From Verrucomicrobiia bacterium (GTDB taxonomy: Bacteria > Verrucomicrobiota > Verrucomicrobiia > Opitutales > Cerasicoccaceae), in NCBI GenBank assembly GCA_030425485.1, contig JAUIAM010000026.1:1-57156 (forward strand): 57,156 nucleotides of DNA. Reading direction: 5' to 3'. The notes below the pieces were generated by a model. That model saw nothing but the letters and a program-made list of their open reading frames with translations. It made no database searches and was not told the origin of the DNA. The position numbers and the translations under genes were made by a program. Positions within the stretch are counted from its first letter, which is position 1, and every line of letters begins with the position of its first letter. Positions 16,750 through 21,064 of the stretch are shown here, one piece after another.

Positions 16750-18045
16750 ATGAAAGCACTTTCTGAGACCGAGCAGTATTTATTTTCCCTGCGCAACCGT
16801 GGATCGACCTACGGTATTGAGCGCATGGAGGCCTTCGCCGAGGCATTGGGACAACCCCAACGGCGCTATCCAGTGATCCACGTCGCGGGCACCAATGGTA
16901 AGGGCTCGGTCTGCGCCATGCTGGAAGCGATCTACCGCCGTAGCGGGCGGCAGGTGGGGCTCTTTACTTCGCCGCACCTGGTCCATCTGGGCGAGCGGGT
17001 ACAGCTAAACCGCGTGCCTCTGAGTATGCCCGTGATCGAGCAATACGTGGCGCACCTGCGTGGAGTGGGAGAGAAGATCGCGGCCAAAGACCCGAACTTG
17101 CACCCAACCTTTTTTGAGTTCATTGCCGCCATGGCTATGGTGAGCTTCGCGGAGGAAAACGTAGACCTGGCCATCTTTGAAACGGGGTTGGGCGGCCGTC
17201 TTGACGCGACGAACGTCGTGGTACCCGAAGTTTCAGTCATCACCTCGATTGCCCTCGACCACACGGAGATGCTGGGCGACACCCTGGCCAAGATTGCGCG
17301 TGAGAAGGCAGGTATTATCAAGGCCGGTAAGCCCGTCGTCATCGGGCTGCTTCCCGCTGAGGCCGAGGTCGTTATCCGCGATGTCGCTGCCGAGCGCGGT
17401 TGTGTGGTCCACAGCGTACGTGAGGCTTTTGCCGGGGCAGGGGATTATCCTGAAACTAATCTCGAAGGCAGCTATCAGCGGACGAATGCTGCCACCGCCG
17501 TACTCGTAACGCGTGTCTTGCAAACACCGTTTCCCGTGGATGTGGCGGAAGTGCAGCGTGCGCTGCGCAAGGTGGAGTGGGCGGGCCGCTGGCAGCGGCT
17601 AAAGCTTACCGACGGGCGCGAGCTGATTCTGGATGCCTCGCACAACCCGGAGGGTGCCACCACGCTGGAGGAGAACCTGAAGCATTTGGTGGAGGTGAAG
17701 GGGCGCAAACCTGTCATTCTAACCGGGGTCTTGGGTGAGGAGCGTGCGCGTGCACTTGTGCCCGTTATGACGCGCTATGCCAGCAGCCTCGTACTACTGG
17801 TCCCGGATCAACCCCGTGCCCTCAGTACGGAGCAGCTACGGGCCTGTATCCCGGCAACTTTTTCGGGAAAGGTGCTGGCGGGTGATAGCGTCGATACACT
17901 GTTTCCGGCTCCGTGGCAATGCAGCGCCGGGGAGGCTGGTGATACCCTTGTCGTGGCGGGCTCGATCTACCTTATTGGCGAAATTCTGGCCCGCTTGCTA
18001 CCGGATGAGGCACAGATGGGGGCGGCATTTCAGGATAAGGTGTGA
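16750..18045 (+). CDS. folC: Folylpolyglutamate synthase / dihydrofolate synthase
   Basis: A Mur-ligase-family enzyme of 431 residues that attaches glutamate to dihydropteroate or folates. It carries the P-loop VIHVAGTNGKGSVCAMLEAI, the SPHLVHLGERVQLN segment, the FETGLGGRLDATNVV metal/omega motif, and the C-terminal LDASHNPEGATTLEENL motif. The open frame extends upstream to 16654, overlapping accD. The ATG at 16750 (MKALSETEQYLFSL) matches the usual family N terminus and is preferred. The accD-folC order is common in bacteria and points to one operon. Confidence 0.93.
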   Translation: MKALSETEQYLFSLRNRGSTYGIERMEAFAEALGQPQRRYPVIHVAGTNGKGSVCAMLEAIYRRSGRQVGLFTSPHLVHLGERVQLNRVPLSMPVIEQYVAHLRGVGEKIAAKDPNLHPTFFEFIAAMAMVSFAEENVDLAIFETGLGGRLDATNVVVPEVSVITSIALDHTEMLGDTLAKIAREKAGIIKAGKPVVIGLLPAEAEVVIRDVAAERGCVVHSVREAFAGAGDYPETNLEGSYQRTNAATAVLVTRVLQTPFPVDVAEVQRALRKVEWAGRWQRLKLTDGRELILDASHNPEGATTLEENLKHLVEVKGRKPVILTGVLGEERARALVPVMTRYASSLVLLVPDQPRALSTEQLRACIPATFSGKVLAGDSVDTLFPAPWQCSAGEAGDTLVVAGSIYLIGEILARLLPDEAQMGAAFQDKV

Positions 18046-18339
18046 AGACTGCGGTTTTAGGCCGCATTGTGTATTGCGCAGATGCGACAGCGTCCAGGGA
18101 AGCTTATCCGCGTACCTGAAGCCGAAATTTTTGAAACTTTTTTTGGCTCCGATGCGAAAAGTCCGAGTTACGGACTTGTTCACAGGGCTGTGAATGGGGA
18201 GCGGGCAGGTTGCTCACCATTGTAACAATTGCAAAGATGTCGGCGTCAGCGTGTTACAGACTTGTTAACATATGCACTTTTGTTATGCTGGGAATTGTTC
18301 ACAAGTTGTTGTTTTTTAGTTGCTTATGGTGCCCGTCGC

Positions 18340-18368
18340 TTGACTTTTGGGCAAGTCTGCGTTTTACT
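18340..18368 (+). promoter_or_regulatory. Putative sigma70-type promoter of the structured RNA
   Basis: TTGACT at 18340-18345 and TTTACT at 18363-18368 are separated by exactly 17 bp. Four to five of six bases match each consensus element. Initiation would fall near the A at 18375, just before the dense helix-forming region. The AT-rich upstream stretch (18230-18330) is compatible with a strong promoter. This is a prediction only. Confidence 0.45.
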
Positions 18369-18431
18369 GTTGTCAGTTCTTTGACAGAAAAGGTTGCACG
18401 GCTCCGAAACGCTTCTGGCTTGCCAGGACTT

Positions 18432-19311
18432 GCGCCTAAGATACGTGCACAAACCTCAGGATAATCCCGGGTAACCGGGGAAAGGTCGGCAACCAAACTG
18501 GCGGTTCCGGCCCCTGACACACGCGCTTTGCGGCGAGTCCCTGTCAGGCAGATGTCACCCCTTCCGCCCACGGGTTGTCGTGACCCGTTGGGTTTACCCA
18601 CGACTTGAAGGAAGGCGGCGAGGAGCATCCTATGGATACGGATGCGACTCGAGTGAAGCTTCGGATCTATCCGGGTCCAAGCTGTGACGCGGCGACCCCT
18701 GCGCTATAAGAGGGTCAATGAGTCGCTGCCGCGAGCCAGTCCTCCACGGTGTAACGACCGGCGACGGCACGTCGCCAAAAGGTCATCTCACGATGACACG
18801 AAAAGGTCGGCTGCTGGAGAGCGGGACAGGTGGTGCCGGGCAAAGGCGCCTCCGCGTTCCGAAACATGCAAAACGTCGGCGGAACGGAAAACCGTTTCGA
18901 CGGCGCTGTCAGCGCGAAATGTGATCTGAGGGATGTCCCCCTGGCTCTGTGAGCCTGTGGCGGCGAGAGATGGCCCCGTACAGAGCCGTCGACTCGCCGG
19001 GCCGCTCCGGCAGGACGATTAAGAGGCAAGACCCGTAACCGCAGGGCCAACGCTCCGGCTTTGGCTGGAGGCCGACCCTGCGGACACAGGGTTGAGGCGG
19101 CGAGACAGCGTCACCCCAACCCGGTGCGGCGAGTCGATTGTCCCGACGGGGACAGGACCGAACCGCGCTGAAAGGCCTCACCCAATACACTCAGGGAGGG
19201 TAACTTCCCTGACGGGCCTGCTATGAGCCCGCTGACCCGTAGATGCCACCGGGAATAGCGTCGGGGAAACGACAGCCATCCTCCGGGATAGAGCGCCTAA
19301 TGTCGTTGCAC
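18432..19311 (+). repeat. Paired 19-nt motif at both ends of the structured RNA
   Basis: GCGCCTAA-N6-TGCAC occurs at 18432-18450 and again in the same orientation at 19293-19311, near the two ends of the candidate RNA. The 8-nt and 5-nt parts are identical and the 6-nt spacers differ. It may be a repeated structural module. The span given covers both copies and the sequence between them. Confidence 0.5.
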
Positions 19312-19349
19312 GGGAAAGAGCGCGTGGCGAGCGCCCACACCCACTTTTA

Positions 19350-19386
19350 AAAAGCCCTCCGCGAACATCGTGGAGGGCTTTTTTTG
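19350..19386. terminator. Strong, probably bidirectional intrinsic terminator
   Basis: A 12-bp stem (19352-19363 with 19369-19380, one G-U pair) closes a 5-nt loop AACAT. It is followed on the plus strand by TTTTT and preceded by AAAA, so U-tracts exist in both directions. It would end the structured RNA from the left and the FKBP transcript from the right. Confidence 0.85.
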
Positions 19387-19427
19387 TCCGCATTTGCGGA
19401 AAACGGATTGCTTGGAGGAAGGCGCAG

Positions 19428-20207
19428 TTACTTGCCAGCTTGCTTGTCAGTCCTGGGGTTTAGCTCGACCAGTTCGATCGTGTAGATGAGGGTCGAGCCC
19501 GGGGGCATGGGATTATAGATGTTCATCTCGCTGCCAAAGCCCAACTCAGCGGGGACATACAGTTTGAGGTGGCCGCCGGTGTTGACCAGTTGCAGGCCTT
19601 CGCGTAAGCCGGGCAGCAGGCCCGCGATCGGGAGCTGCACGCTTTCGCCCTGTACGTAGGTGTCGGTGAAGACTGTGCCGTCAATGAGCATGGCCCTGAA
19701 GTCAACGACCGCGATGTCGCCTGGCTTGGGCTTGGGACCATCACCGGGGACGAGTATCTGGTAAAACAGGCCGCTTTCCGTTTGCTGAAGGGTGGGGTCC
19801 TTGGCCAGTTGGGCAAAGAGCGCGTCCTCCTGCTCGCGGTTGTGCGCGATTATCCGCTGCACGAACGGCTTGTAGTGATTGGCCCATTCTTCAAGGAACT
19901 GCGCACTCATCAGCCAGCTCGGCTTCTTTTTCAGCAAAGGTGGAGGCGCACCATTGTAGAGACGCGCTTTTACCCCCTCCAGGTAGGCTGTCTTTTCCGC
20001 CTCAGACATACCGTGTACCTCTGGCCCTGGGGTTGCCAGGTAGCCGAGAGCCTTGAACTGTTCCAACGGGACATCTTCCCCATCCGGGCTTATGACCGGA
20101 GCAGTAGCCGCGGTCTGCAATGCTGGGCTCGGTGCGGTGGGACCAGAGTCAGCTTGAGTAAGTAAGGGAAGGGTGAGGAAGAGTCCGAGTCGGTAAGGAA
20201 TTCTCAT
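19428..20207 (-). CDS. Exported FKBP-type peptidyl-prolyl isomerase
   Basis: A 259-residue secreted isomerase. A signal peptide (MRIPYRLGLFLTLPLLTQA) is followed by an FkpA-type N-terminal dimerisation region (residues about 50-130). The C-terminal FKBP domain (GDIAVVDFRAMLIDGTVFTD, then LPGLREGLQLVNTGG, YVPAELGFG, PPGSTLIYTIELVEL) is near residues 155-250. Such proteins help fold exported proteins. I chose ATG 20207 because the only start upstream in frame is a TTG four codons earlier. It is followed by the shared terminator at 19350-19386 and preceded by a second FKBP gene, its likely paralogue. Confidence 0.9.
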   Translation of the reverse strand: MRIPYRLGLFLTLPLLTQADSGPTAPSPALQTAATAPVISPDGEDVPLEQFKALGYLATPGPEVHGMSEAEKTAYLEGVKARLYNGAPPPLLKKKPSWLMSAQFLEEWANHYKPFVQRIIAHNREQEDALFAQLAKDPTLQQTESGLFYQILVPGDGPKPKPGDIAVVDFRAMLIDGTVFTDTYVQGESVQLPIAGLLPGLREGLQLVNTGGHLKLYVPAELGFGSEMNIYNPMPPGSTLIYTIELVELNPRTDKQAGK

Positions 20208-20276
20208 AGAGTTATTCAAGGATACGGGGGTGCTCCGAAGCGGGGAGCTGTCAGATTGTCCCGTTGGGGCAGGCCC

Positions 20277-21026
20277 TTACTGGGCCTTGGGGTCGATCAT
20301 CTCGACTTCAAAGATCAGCGTCGAGCCGGGGGGGATATCGCTACCCGGGTTAAACTCATCGCCATAGCCGAGATCGGAGGGGATGTAGAGTTTGACCTTG
20401 CCACCCTTGCCAACGAGCTGGACGCCCTCGCCGAAGCCTTTGACCACGCCGTTAACCGGGAATGTAGCGGACTGGCCGCGCTTGTAGGAACTGTCAAATT
20501 CCTTGCCGTTGATCAGGGTGCCACGGTAGTTGACGCGGACAGAATCGCTGGTGGTAGCGTGGGGGCCTTCACCTTCTTCGATGATCTCGTAGAGGAGGCC
20601 AGTATCGCTTTTCTGGATGCCGGGCTTGGTGGCCAGTTCTTCGAGGTAGGTTTTACCCTCGGCTTTGTTGGCCAGGGTGATGGTCTGGATGCGCTGTTGC
20701 ATGAATTGCTGAACCTGCTGTTGCACGAGGCGGGGGTTGGCGTTGACGCTCTCGCCGTCGAGACCTGCCTTGACACCACTGAGGAATGCCTCCTTTTCTG
20801 CTTCAGAGAGCTCCATCTTGCCCAACACGACGGTGGACATCCAGCCGAAGCTGCGCAGTGTGGACAGGTCTTCATTCTGCGTCAGCGAGGTAGAGCTGCC
20901 GATGCCGTGCGAGTTAAAGTTCGGTCCGGAGCCGGTGTTCAACTGAGGGGCACCGTCAGCGTGCAGAGACAGGCTGGCAGTAGTCGTGGCGAGGAGGGCG
21001 ACAATGAGTTGCTTCATGGATTTCAT
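20277..21026 (-). CDS. Exported FKBP-type peptidyl-prolyl isomerase, paralogue
   Basis: A 249-residue secreted isomerase with the same architecture as its downstream neighbour: signal peptide (MKSMKQLIVALLATTTASLSLHA), helical N-terminal region with KAGLDGESVNANPRLVQQQV, and a C-terminal FKBP domain. The domain reads DSVRVNYRGTLINGKEFDSS, VVKGFGEGVQLVGKGGKVKL, YIPSDLGYGDEF, IPPGSTLIFEVEM. This copy is closer to the FkpA/Mip consensus (YRGTLINGKEFDSS) than the neighbour. The gap between the two genes is about 70 bp, so they may share one transcript. The start may be 21026 or the ATG at 21017. Confidence 0.92.
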   Translation of the reverse strand: MKSMKQLIVALLATTTASLSLHADGAPQLNTGSGPNFNSHGIGSSTSLTQNEDLSTLRSFGWMSTVVLGKMELSEAEKEAFLSGVKAGLDGESVNANPRLVQQQVQQFMQQRIQTITLANKAEGKTYLEELATKPGIQKSDTGLLYEIIEEGEGPHATTSDSVRVNYRGTLINGKEFDSSYKRGQSATFPVNGVVKGFGEGVQLVGKGGKVKLYIPSDLGYGDEFNPGSDIPPGSTLIFEVEMIDPKAQ

Positions 21027-21064
21027 ATTAAGAGCTTGTGCGTGAATCAGGGGTTCGGGCAAAC

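Follow-up and report, generated by a model that had tools for sequence, protein, structure and literature searches.

The window that we analyzed is a stretch of 57,156 nucleotides, from contig JAUIAM010000026.1 of a Verrucomicrobiia bacterium (assembly GCA_030425485.1; family Cerasicoccaceae). It contains the gene series accD-folC-MISL-FKBP-LMW phosphatase, which is also found in a congeneric genome (G001). Downstream of MISL, two tandem genes for FKBP-type prolyl isomerases occupy 19428-21062 on the minus strand. With Rfam's cmscan, we found a single match at the gathering threshold in the whole window, which is to the MISL RNA (RF03079), at 18459-19335 on the plus strand. This match covers the full model (1-751 of 751; E = 1.4e-81), with a score barely above the gathering cut-off (277.5 bits versus 274.6). 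It is the only copy in its genome. In a tree of 121 MISL sequences, the window groups with the congeneric G001 and G002 (support of 1.0) and then with the other loci of family f1 (0.984). Given the score over the full model, the shared ancestry, and the covarying pairs described below, we identify the locus as a MISL RNA gene; MISL is an orphan family already in Rfam. An earlier, sequence-only reading had taken this RNA for a new class, and the full-length Rfam match ends that claim. The same reading recognized none of the giant RNAs OLE, GOLLD, or ROOL, which agrees with our search: none of the three is among the 11 Rfam matches up to E = 10 in 18200-19500.

MISL RNA was reportedly first described by Weinberg and colleagues in 2017. 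A MISL window also served as a chemical-mapping example in a paper that uses the phrase "MISL RNA"; the part of its text that we consulted states no function.

We rejected a protein-coding role for this region: its longest open reading frame has at most 111 amino acids, the best Pfam match for the six reading frames tested has E = 0.056, and each of the six is interrupted by 5-11 frameshifting indels relative to G001 and G002. This upholds the earlier view that no plausible protein is encoded. The dense RNA structure was also confirmed. The minimum free energy of 18390-19387 is -465.2 kcal/mol, as compared to -408.5 ± 10.1 kcal/mol for dinucleotide shuffles (z = -5.63; 0 of 20 shuffles were as low). 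In the same fold, a 16-bp stem-loop at 19349-19383, followed by a run of T's to 19387, forms a predicted intrinsic terminator (plus strand), as had been proposed. (This stem-loop was not picked up by a simple scan for terminators in 17500-20500.) By our own criterion, 68 of 82 MISL loci have terminator-like tails. The proposed promoter, TTGACT-17-TTTACT, is at 18340-18368 on the plus strand (18340-18345 and 18363-18368), and it matches the sigma-70 consensus at 9 of 12 positions. A promoter scan of the region, which requires A at position 2 of the -10 box, found none. The proposed limits of 18375-19386 are close to the comparative limits, with a conserved element from 18376 and the terminator stem to 19383. 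Overall, the fold and the comparative gene model bear out the reading as a large, structured RNA that is non-coding and has a promoter and a terminator of its own.

A cis-regulatory leader of the neighboring gene is unlikely: the terminator follows the RNA, and among the 30 largest clusters of neighboring proteins (four open reading frames on each side), none is found under more than two family labels. Within family f14, one protein cluster lies at most three reading frames upstream of MISL in 27 loci (for instance L177:5038-7581), and the member that we tested is a HrpB-type helicase.

The comparative analyses began with 85 MISL loci, and the alignments exclude nine incomplete or odd copies. 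For covariation, we used 121 sequences and 867 columns, with a tree-based null that imitates R-scape but is distinct from R-scape itself. This check, similar to one that the earlier reading had proposed, identified 14 covarying pairs at E < 0.05, and each of these pairs is formed in at least 94% of the sequences. The real alignment has 11 helices with at least eight extra pair types, as compared to 0.03 per simulated alignment. Among the 11 are two pseudoknots, PK1 (15 extra types) and PK2 (8 extra types). Covariance models cannot hold pseudoknots, and both helices are absent from the nested Rfam model.

PK1 joins 18720-18726 to 18921-18926 (plus strand; consensus GGUUGC/GCAACC). It is a long-range helix that crosses a local helix, it includes a significant pair (18723-18924, E = 3.2e-3), and it is 94.5% paired, versus 27-41% if the strands are slid. 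In PK2, the hairpin loop UGCUAU at 19219-19224 pairs with AUAGCG at 19255-19260 (plus strand). Across 56 sequences, 96.7% of the cells for PK2 are paired, and four of its six pairs have changes on both sides. A seven-helix structure that includes PK2 exceeds all 500 shuffles by every measure. That PK1 and PK2 are real is thus well supported by covariation.

A candidate third pseudoknot, PK3, would join CUGGC at 18498-18502 to GCCAG at 18735-18739 (plus strand). It is 98% paired, and in the window a C-G pair replaces a U-A pair of the consensus CUGGU/ACCAG. Its support is only moderate, since helices with six extra types arise about three times per null alignment. Two other pairings (PK4, 18579-18582 with 18599-18602, and 18906-18909 with 19105-19108) were too weak relative to the null, and we dropped them.

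We then consider where MISL is found. In the order that includes the window, at least 129 of 331 genomes have a match to the Rfam model with E ≤ 0.001, and at least 119 exceed the Rfam cut-off. A custom model of the 3' 166 nt matched at least 123 of 314 genomes, of which the weakest (E = 1e-5 to 1e-3) are perhaps chance matches. In a draw from across the phylum, which overlaps the draws from the order, the counts were at least 32 of 383 (Rfam model) and at least 33 of 383 (3' model). All of these are lower bounds, as only 2 candidates per genome were scored with the Rfam model and 7-9 with the 3' model. Five of the 32 genomes from the phylum draw are outside the order (two from f29 and one each from f41, f48, and f55). 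The suggestion that the RNA is "perhaps lineage-specific" is consistent with these results: our genome searches covered the window's own phylum, and they found MISL in its order and in five genomes from other orders or classes. Outside the phylum, the search was by exact 19-mer only. The five hits with labels from other phyla (Gemmatimonas, Zixiibacteriota, Bryobacterales, and Chelativorans; L068, L070, L075, L079, and L084) gave no MISL match, so we set aside a spread beyond the phylum. The exact 19-mer GGGAAAGAGCGCGTGGCGA had no match in viral contigs, and we set aside a viral RNA as well.

Another congeneric genome, G003, has accD-folC-FKBP-phosphatase, and MISL was found neither between these genes nor elsewhere in the genome. 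This looks like a real absence. The patchy presence of MISL suggests that it is dispensable over evolutionary time.

The inheritance of MISL looks mainly vertical, since the tree of its sequences shows six families (f1, f2, f4, f8, f21, and f29) as monophyletic. For the same reason we set aside the idea that MISL is a mobile RNA. The loci from f14 form a clade with 45 further loci that have no family label. Loci from f11 cluster with those from f22 and also with those from f29, a family from another order; this placement with f29 could possibly reflect transfer or misplacement. Duplication does occur: in G039, two copies (L317 and L318) are identical over 141 nt, from the contig end to just past the terminator, and their flanks are unrelated beyond that. 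Most of the positive genomes have one match, and five had two in the order search (G134, G169, G195, G196, and G211; loci L168, L175, L183, L185, and L193). These do not form a single clean clade in the tree. A 3' end that has diverged (GGAGCGCGCGGCGA) is seen in one of the two copies from each of G134, G169, G195, and G196, and the only copy in G248 is similar. Also, 12 of the 79 MISL loci that we fetched are within 300 bp of a contig end (2.6 expected), which suggests repeats or sequence that is difficult to assemble.

Upstream of the Rfam model, most families outside f14 have a TTGAC -35 box about 36 nt before a conserved element, and a promoter score of at least 8/12 is found for 31 of 79 MISL loci, versus 12 of 154 control windows. 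The promoters of f14 fit poorly. The conserved element, GTTCYTTGANAGAA, starts about 83 nt before the model and is followed by a hairpin. It resembles the boxA of rRNA leaders from related genomes. In the window, the boxA-like element GTTCTTTGACAGAA is at 18376-18389 (plus strand), where the transcript is predicted to begin. In an alignment of 76 loci, it corresponds to a block, GTTCYTTGANAGAACAG, at 18376-18392, which ends 67 nt before the model. The hairpin, P0, is at 18391-18456 (plus strand) according to single-sequence folds. P0 is predicted between the element and the model, and the sequence of its helix varies between families.

In that alignment, which was not selected by pattern, bases 1, 3, 4, 6, 7, 8, and 9 of the element are at least 90% conserved (weighted by similarity). 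The pattern NNTCYTTGR is present within 260 nt in 78 loci. Along with G005, whose element is at -305, this makes 79 of the 82 loci that could be assessed (out of 85), with related loci counted separately. (In G004, the match that we counted is not the proper element, which is at about -205.) The loci without the pattern are those of G292 and G229, whose RNAs lack the 5' part, and G109, which has the variant GTTCATTGATA. As bases 3-9 are set by the pattern itself, the informative bases in this set are the others: all 78 loci have G as base 1 and A as base 14, and 71 have T as base 2.

We did not find the 16S gene in the window's own genome, either by the SSU family search or by the start pattern, and the comparison to boxA rests on related genomes. 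(Among 30 genomes, 16S was located in 6 by family search and in 10 by start pattern.) G-N-TCTTTGA is present in the rRNA leaders of seven of nine assessable genomes with MISL: as GTTCTTTGAAA in G096, G134, G205, and G048, as GCTCTTTGAAA in G005 and G622, and as GATCTTTGATA in G388. The leaders in G355 (GTTCTTTTAAA) and G593 (GATCTTTCACA) have another base at position 8, and too little of the leader from G569 was available. In f14, most of the MISL elements are GTTCCTTGA, which is one base away from the GTTCTTTGA of the two f14 rRNA leaders that we examined. The consensus for boxA from gamma-proteobacteria is given as GYTCTTTAANA in the consulted part of PMC5725501, whose survey, as described there, left out non-coding RNAs. 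GTTCTTTGACA has one mismatch to this consensus, at position 8, and the related rRNA leaders have G there in seven of nine cases.

An alternative is that the conserved sequence is a 5'-terminal hairpin (GUUC..GAAC) or an initial-transcription element, and not a boxA. GTTC-N7-GAAC could pair in most loci (base 15 is C in 68 of 78), and where a promoter is recognized outside of f11, f22, and f29, the element is at about +1, which is unusually near the start. But base 1 is G in all 78 loci even though its partner is not C in 10 of them, and in seven loci with GATC, the second pair is lost and nothing compensates for it. Also, in six loci from f11, f22, and f29, the best predicted -10 box ends 20-25 nt before the element, instead of 6-10 nt as elsewhere, so the element seems to be tied to the RNA and not to the start site. 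(A short hairpin lies between the -10 box and the element in the minimum-energy folds of four of these six, from G056, G068, G072, and G593; for the other two, one can be drawn by eye.) We consider the hairpin or initial-transcription explanation to be rather doubtful, and the six loci argue that the boxA-like element acts as RNA.

GTTCTTTGANA is also abundant in some genomes without a MISL match, with 47 matches each in G008 and G009 and 12 in G006 (reversed-pattern controls gave 7, 4, and 3). The copies of GTTCTTTGATA that we inspected (such as L263-L274 and L280-L282) belong to an intergenic repeat, preceded by GC-rich sequence and followed by a poly-C run, TTTACCCCCCCC.

Further upstream, the window contains three 9-mers on the plus strand that resemble DnaA boxes. 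TTGTTCACA is at 18176-18184 (-200 relative to the boxA-like element), within the inverted repeat TTCACA..TGTGAA, and is of a class of sites that is also found at other MISL loci. TTGTTAACA is at 18262-18270 (-114). TTGTTCACA is present again at 18295-18303 (-81), and a register of -80 to -83 recurs in many families. The pair at 18262-18303 is the sole match to TTRTTMACAN{1,30}TTRTTMACA in the genome. The window's own sites are marginal: the tandem matches at 13 of 18 positions (p = 0.045), and the single site has p = 0.06. In addition, TTGTTCACA departs at position 3 from the DnaA consensus TTWTNCACA, which the commoner form at MISL loci, TTATTCACA, fits.

For the family-wide tests, related loci were treated as separate throughout. 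TTRTTCACA occurs 63 times in 77 upstream regions of 260 nt, as compared to 4 occurrences in the remaining flanking DNA (about 917 kb); p-values for this 9-mer are inflated, as it was found and tested in the same loci, and the dnaA regions, spacing profile, and control windows are more independent. Compared to dinucleotide shuffles (200 for MISL and dnaA regions and 100 for control windows), the tandem score has p ≤ 0.05 at 67 of 77 MISL loci and p ≤ 0.01 at 58, leaving 10 of 77 not significant; among the 69 control intergenic windows, two reached p ≤ 0.05. For tandem sites with 15 or more matches out of 18, the favored spacing is 11 (28 loci), ahead of 22 (12), 12 (11), and 23 (7), with 0-4 loci at each of the other spacings from 9 to 21. 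When the pattern is relaxed, the sites on the strand of the transcript concentrate around -71, -81, -92, -103, and -114. Their best period is 11.2 bp (54 family-unique positions, with the loci from f11, f22, and f29 shifted by 15 nt beforehand; 0 of 3,000 simulations were as strong). This positioning suggests activation of the promoter.

The genomes' own dnaA genes have similar sites. Of 21 genomes searched, 15 had usable dnaA upstream regions, and these were positive for the tandem sites in 12 cases and for the 9-mer in 13. The tandem negatives are G017 (p = 0.085), G593, and G569; the last two lack the 9-mer upstream of dnaA and have it upstream of MISL. No such boxes were found in 15 kb of DNA upstream of 16S genes.

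An unrelated transcription factor might recognize TTRTTCACA and also act on dnaA, with DnaA itself uninvolved. The 9-mer is linked to DnaA by sequence similarity only, and a loose tandem pattern has 14 matches across 21 genomes, with 8 of them at MISL promoters and the other 6 at different places, such as near the gene for MraW in G004 or a sigma-70-family gene in G017. Against this, TTATTCACA fits both the recorded consensus TTWTNCACA and the epsilonproteobacterial form TTWTTCACN (core TTCAC), as given in the consulted part of PMC5043019; the 9-mer recurs upstream of dnaA, as described above; and the tandem spacing is as for E. coli DnaA, which prefers boxes 2-3 bp apart, or 11-12 bp from start to start (consulted part of PMC11317965). 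We view an unrelated factor as unlikely. As for the rare tandem pairs elsewhere, L326 (G004) precedes a reading frame of no assigned family and then the MraW gene, L338 (G017) is near the sigma-70-family gene, and L334 (G035) precedes a DEAD-box helicase gene.

The comparisons support a gene model in which the upstream boxes are followed by a promoter, a boxA-like element, P0, a pseudoknotted core, and a terminator, all as predicted from sequence. From this model we lean modestly towards a trans-acting structured RNA whose transcription is linked to DnaA and antiterminated. DnaA would bind the tandem boxes about 70-115 bp upstream of the predicted start and activate the promoter, which would couple the output of MISL to the level of DnaA or to the replication cycle. 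Just as boxA does on rRNA, the boxA-like element would recruit the NusB/S10 antitermination complex, allowing RNA polymerase to cross about 1 kb of untranslated RNA without termination by Rho. MISL would form a transcription unit by itself, between its promoter and its terminator, with a predicted transcript of about 1.0 kb, and hence it most likely acts in trans. Most speculatively, the folded RNA may be a structural or ribonucleoprotein machine in growth or replication physiology that is dispensable in many lineages. We advance more tentatively, as possible rather than probable, that MISL is a replication-cycle RNA of Verrucomicrobiota, with its promoter driven by DnaA and its elongation by the rRNA antitermination machinery, so that the activity of DnaA sets the dose of an RNA machine. 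An abstract-level literature search, with most subscription papers outside its coverage, found no paper stating that MISL is DnaA-driven and antiterminated.

The RNA might instead form a homo-oligomer, with the control of its expression being incidental. Its size and dense fold are similar to those of GOLLD-, ROOL-, and OLE-type RNAs, which form homo-oligomers (according to the consulted part of PMC12286853), but it has no Rfam match to any of them, and we consider this improbable as an alternative to the DnaA-linked, antiterminated RNA. We think it very unlikely that the boxes are a titration or reactivation site with an incidental RNA gene, akin to datA and DARS2, the E. coli loci for control of DnaA (consulted part of PMC13036160): MISL is not adjacent to dnaA in the closed genomes that we compared, but the register to the MISL promoter (about -81, -92, -103, and -114) recurs across families, the boxes move with the promoter in the six loci from f11, f22, and f29, and the RNA itself is under structural selection. 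MISL is not beside oriC either: in the closed or nearly closed genomes that we compared, between about 4% and 44% of the genome separates it from dnaA.

MISL is large and conserved, and the literature that we could search states no function for it. If the DnaA-type and boxA-type control region is as we propose, then it tells when and how MISL is made, it links MISL to replication and to rRNA-like transcription, and it extends regulation by DnaA and antitermination by boxA to a large structural RNA. It would also offer precise mutations and binding assays as a starting point for the function of MISL.

Compared to Rfam's MISL, the window's copy covers the entire model, with the conserved core and structure. 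It differs in that the model starts about 83 nt after the conserved 5' element begins, P0 and the terminator are outside of the model, and the nested structure printed by cmscan lacks PK1-PK3 (the Rfam seed may differ). Measured against the consensus of 76 MISL loci, the window's copy also has about 86 inserted nt, at 18933-19018 on the plus strand (the limits depend on the alignment); near there, cmscan left 99 nt unmatched to the model. MISL is like the large ornate RNAs GOLLD, ROOL, and OLE in its size class and dense structure, but not by any Rfam match. Relative to boxA and Nus antitermination of rRNA, GTTCTTTGANA resembles both the gamma-proteobacterial consensus and the related rRNA leaders, but the MISL element has G at position 8 and is found on a single structured RNA, often at its predicted start. 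As in the double DnaA boxes of E. coli, the tandem 9-mers at MISL are 11-12 bp from start to start, but the 9-mer is TTRTTCACA instead of TTATCCACA, and it lies upstream of a large non-coding RNA. Finally, CcnA is a cell-cycle non-coding RNA from Caulobacter (consulted part of PMC8959179), and MISL would be like it in the proposed tie to the cell cycle.
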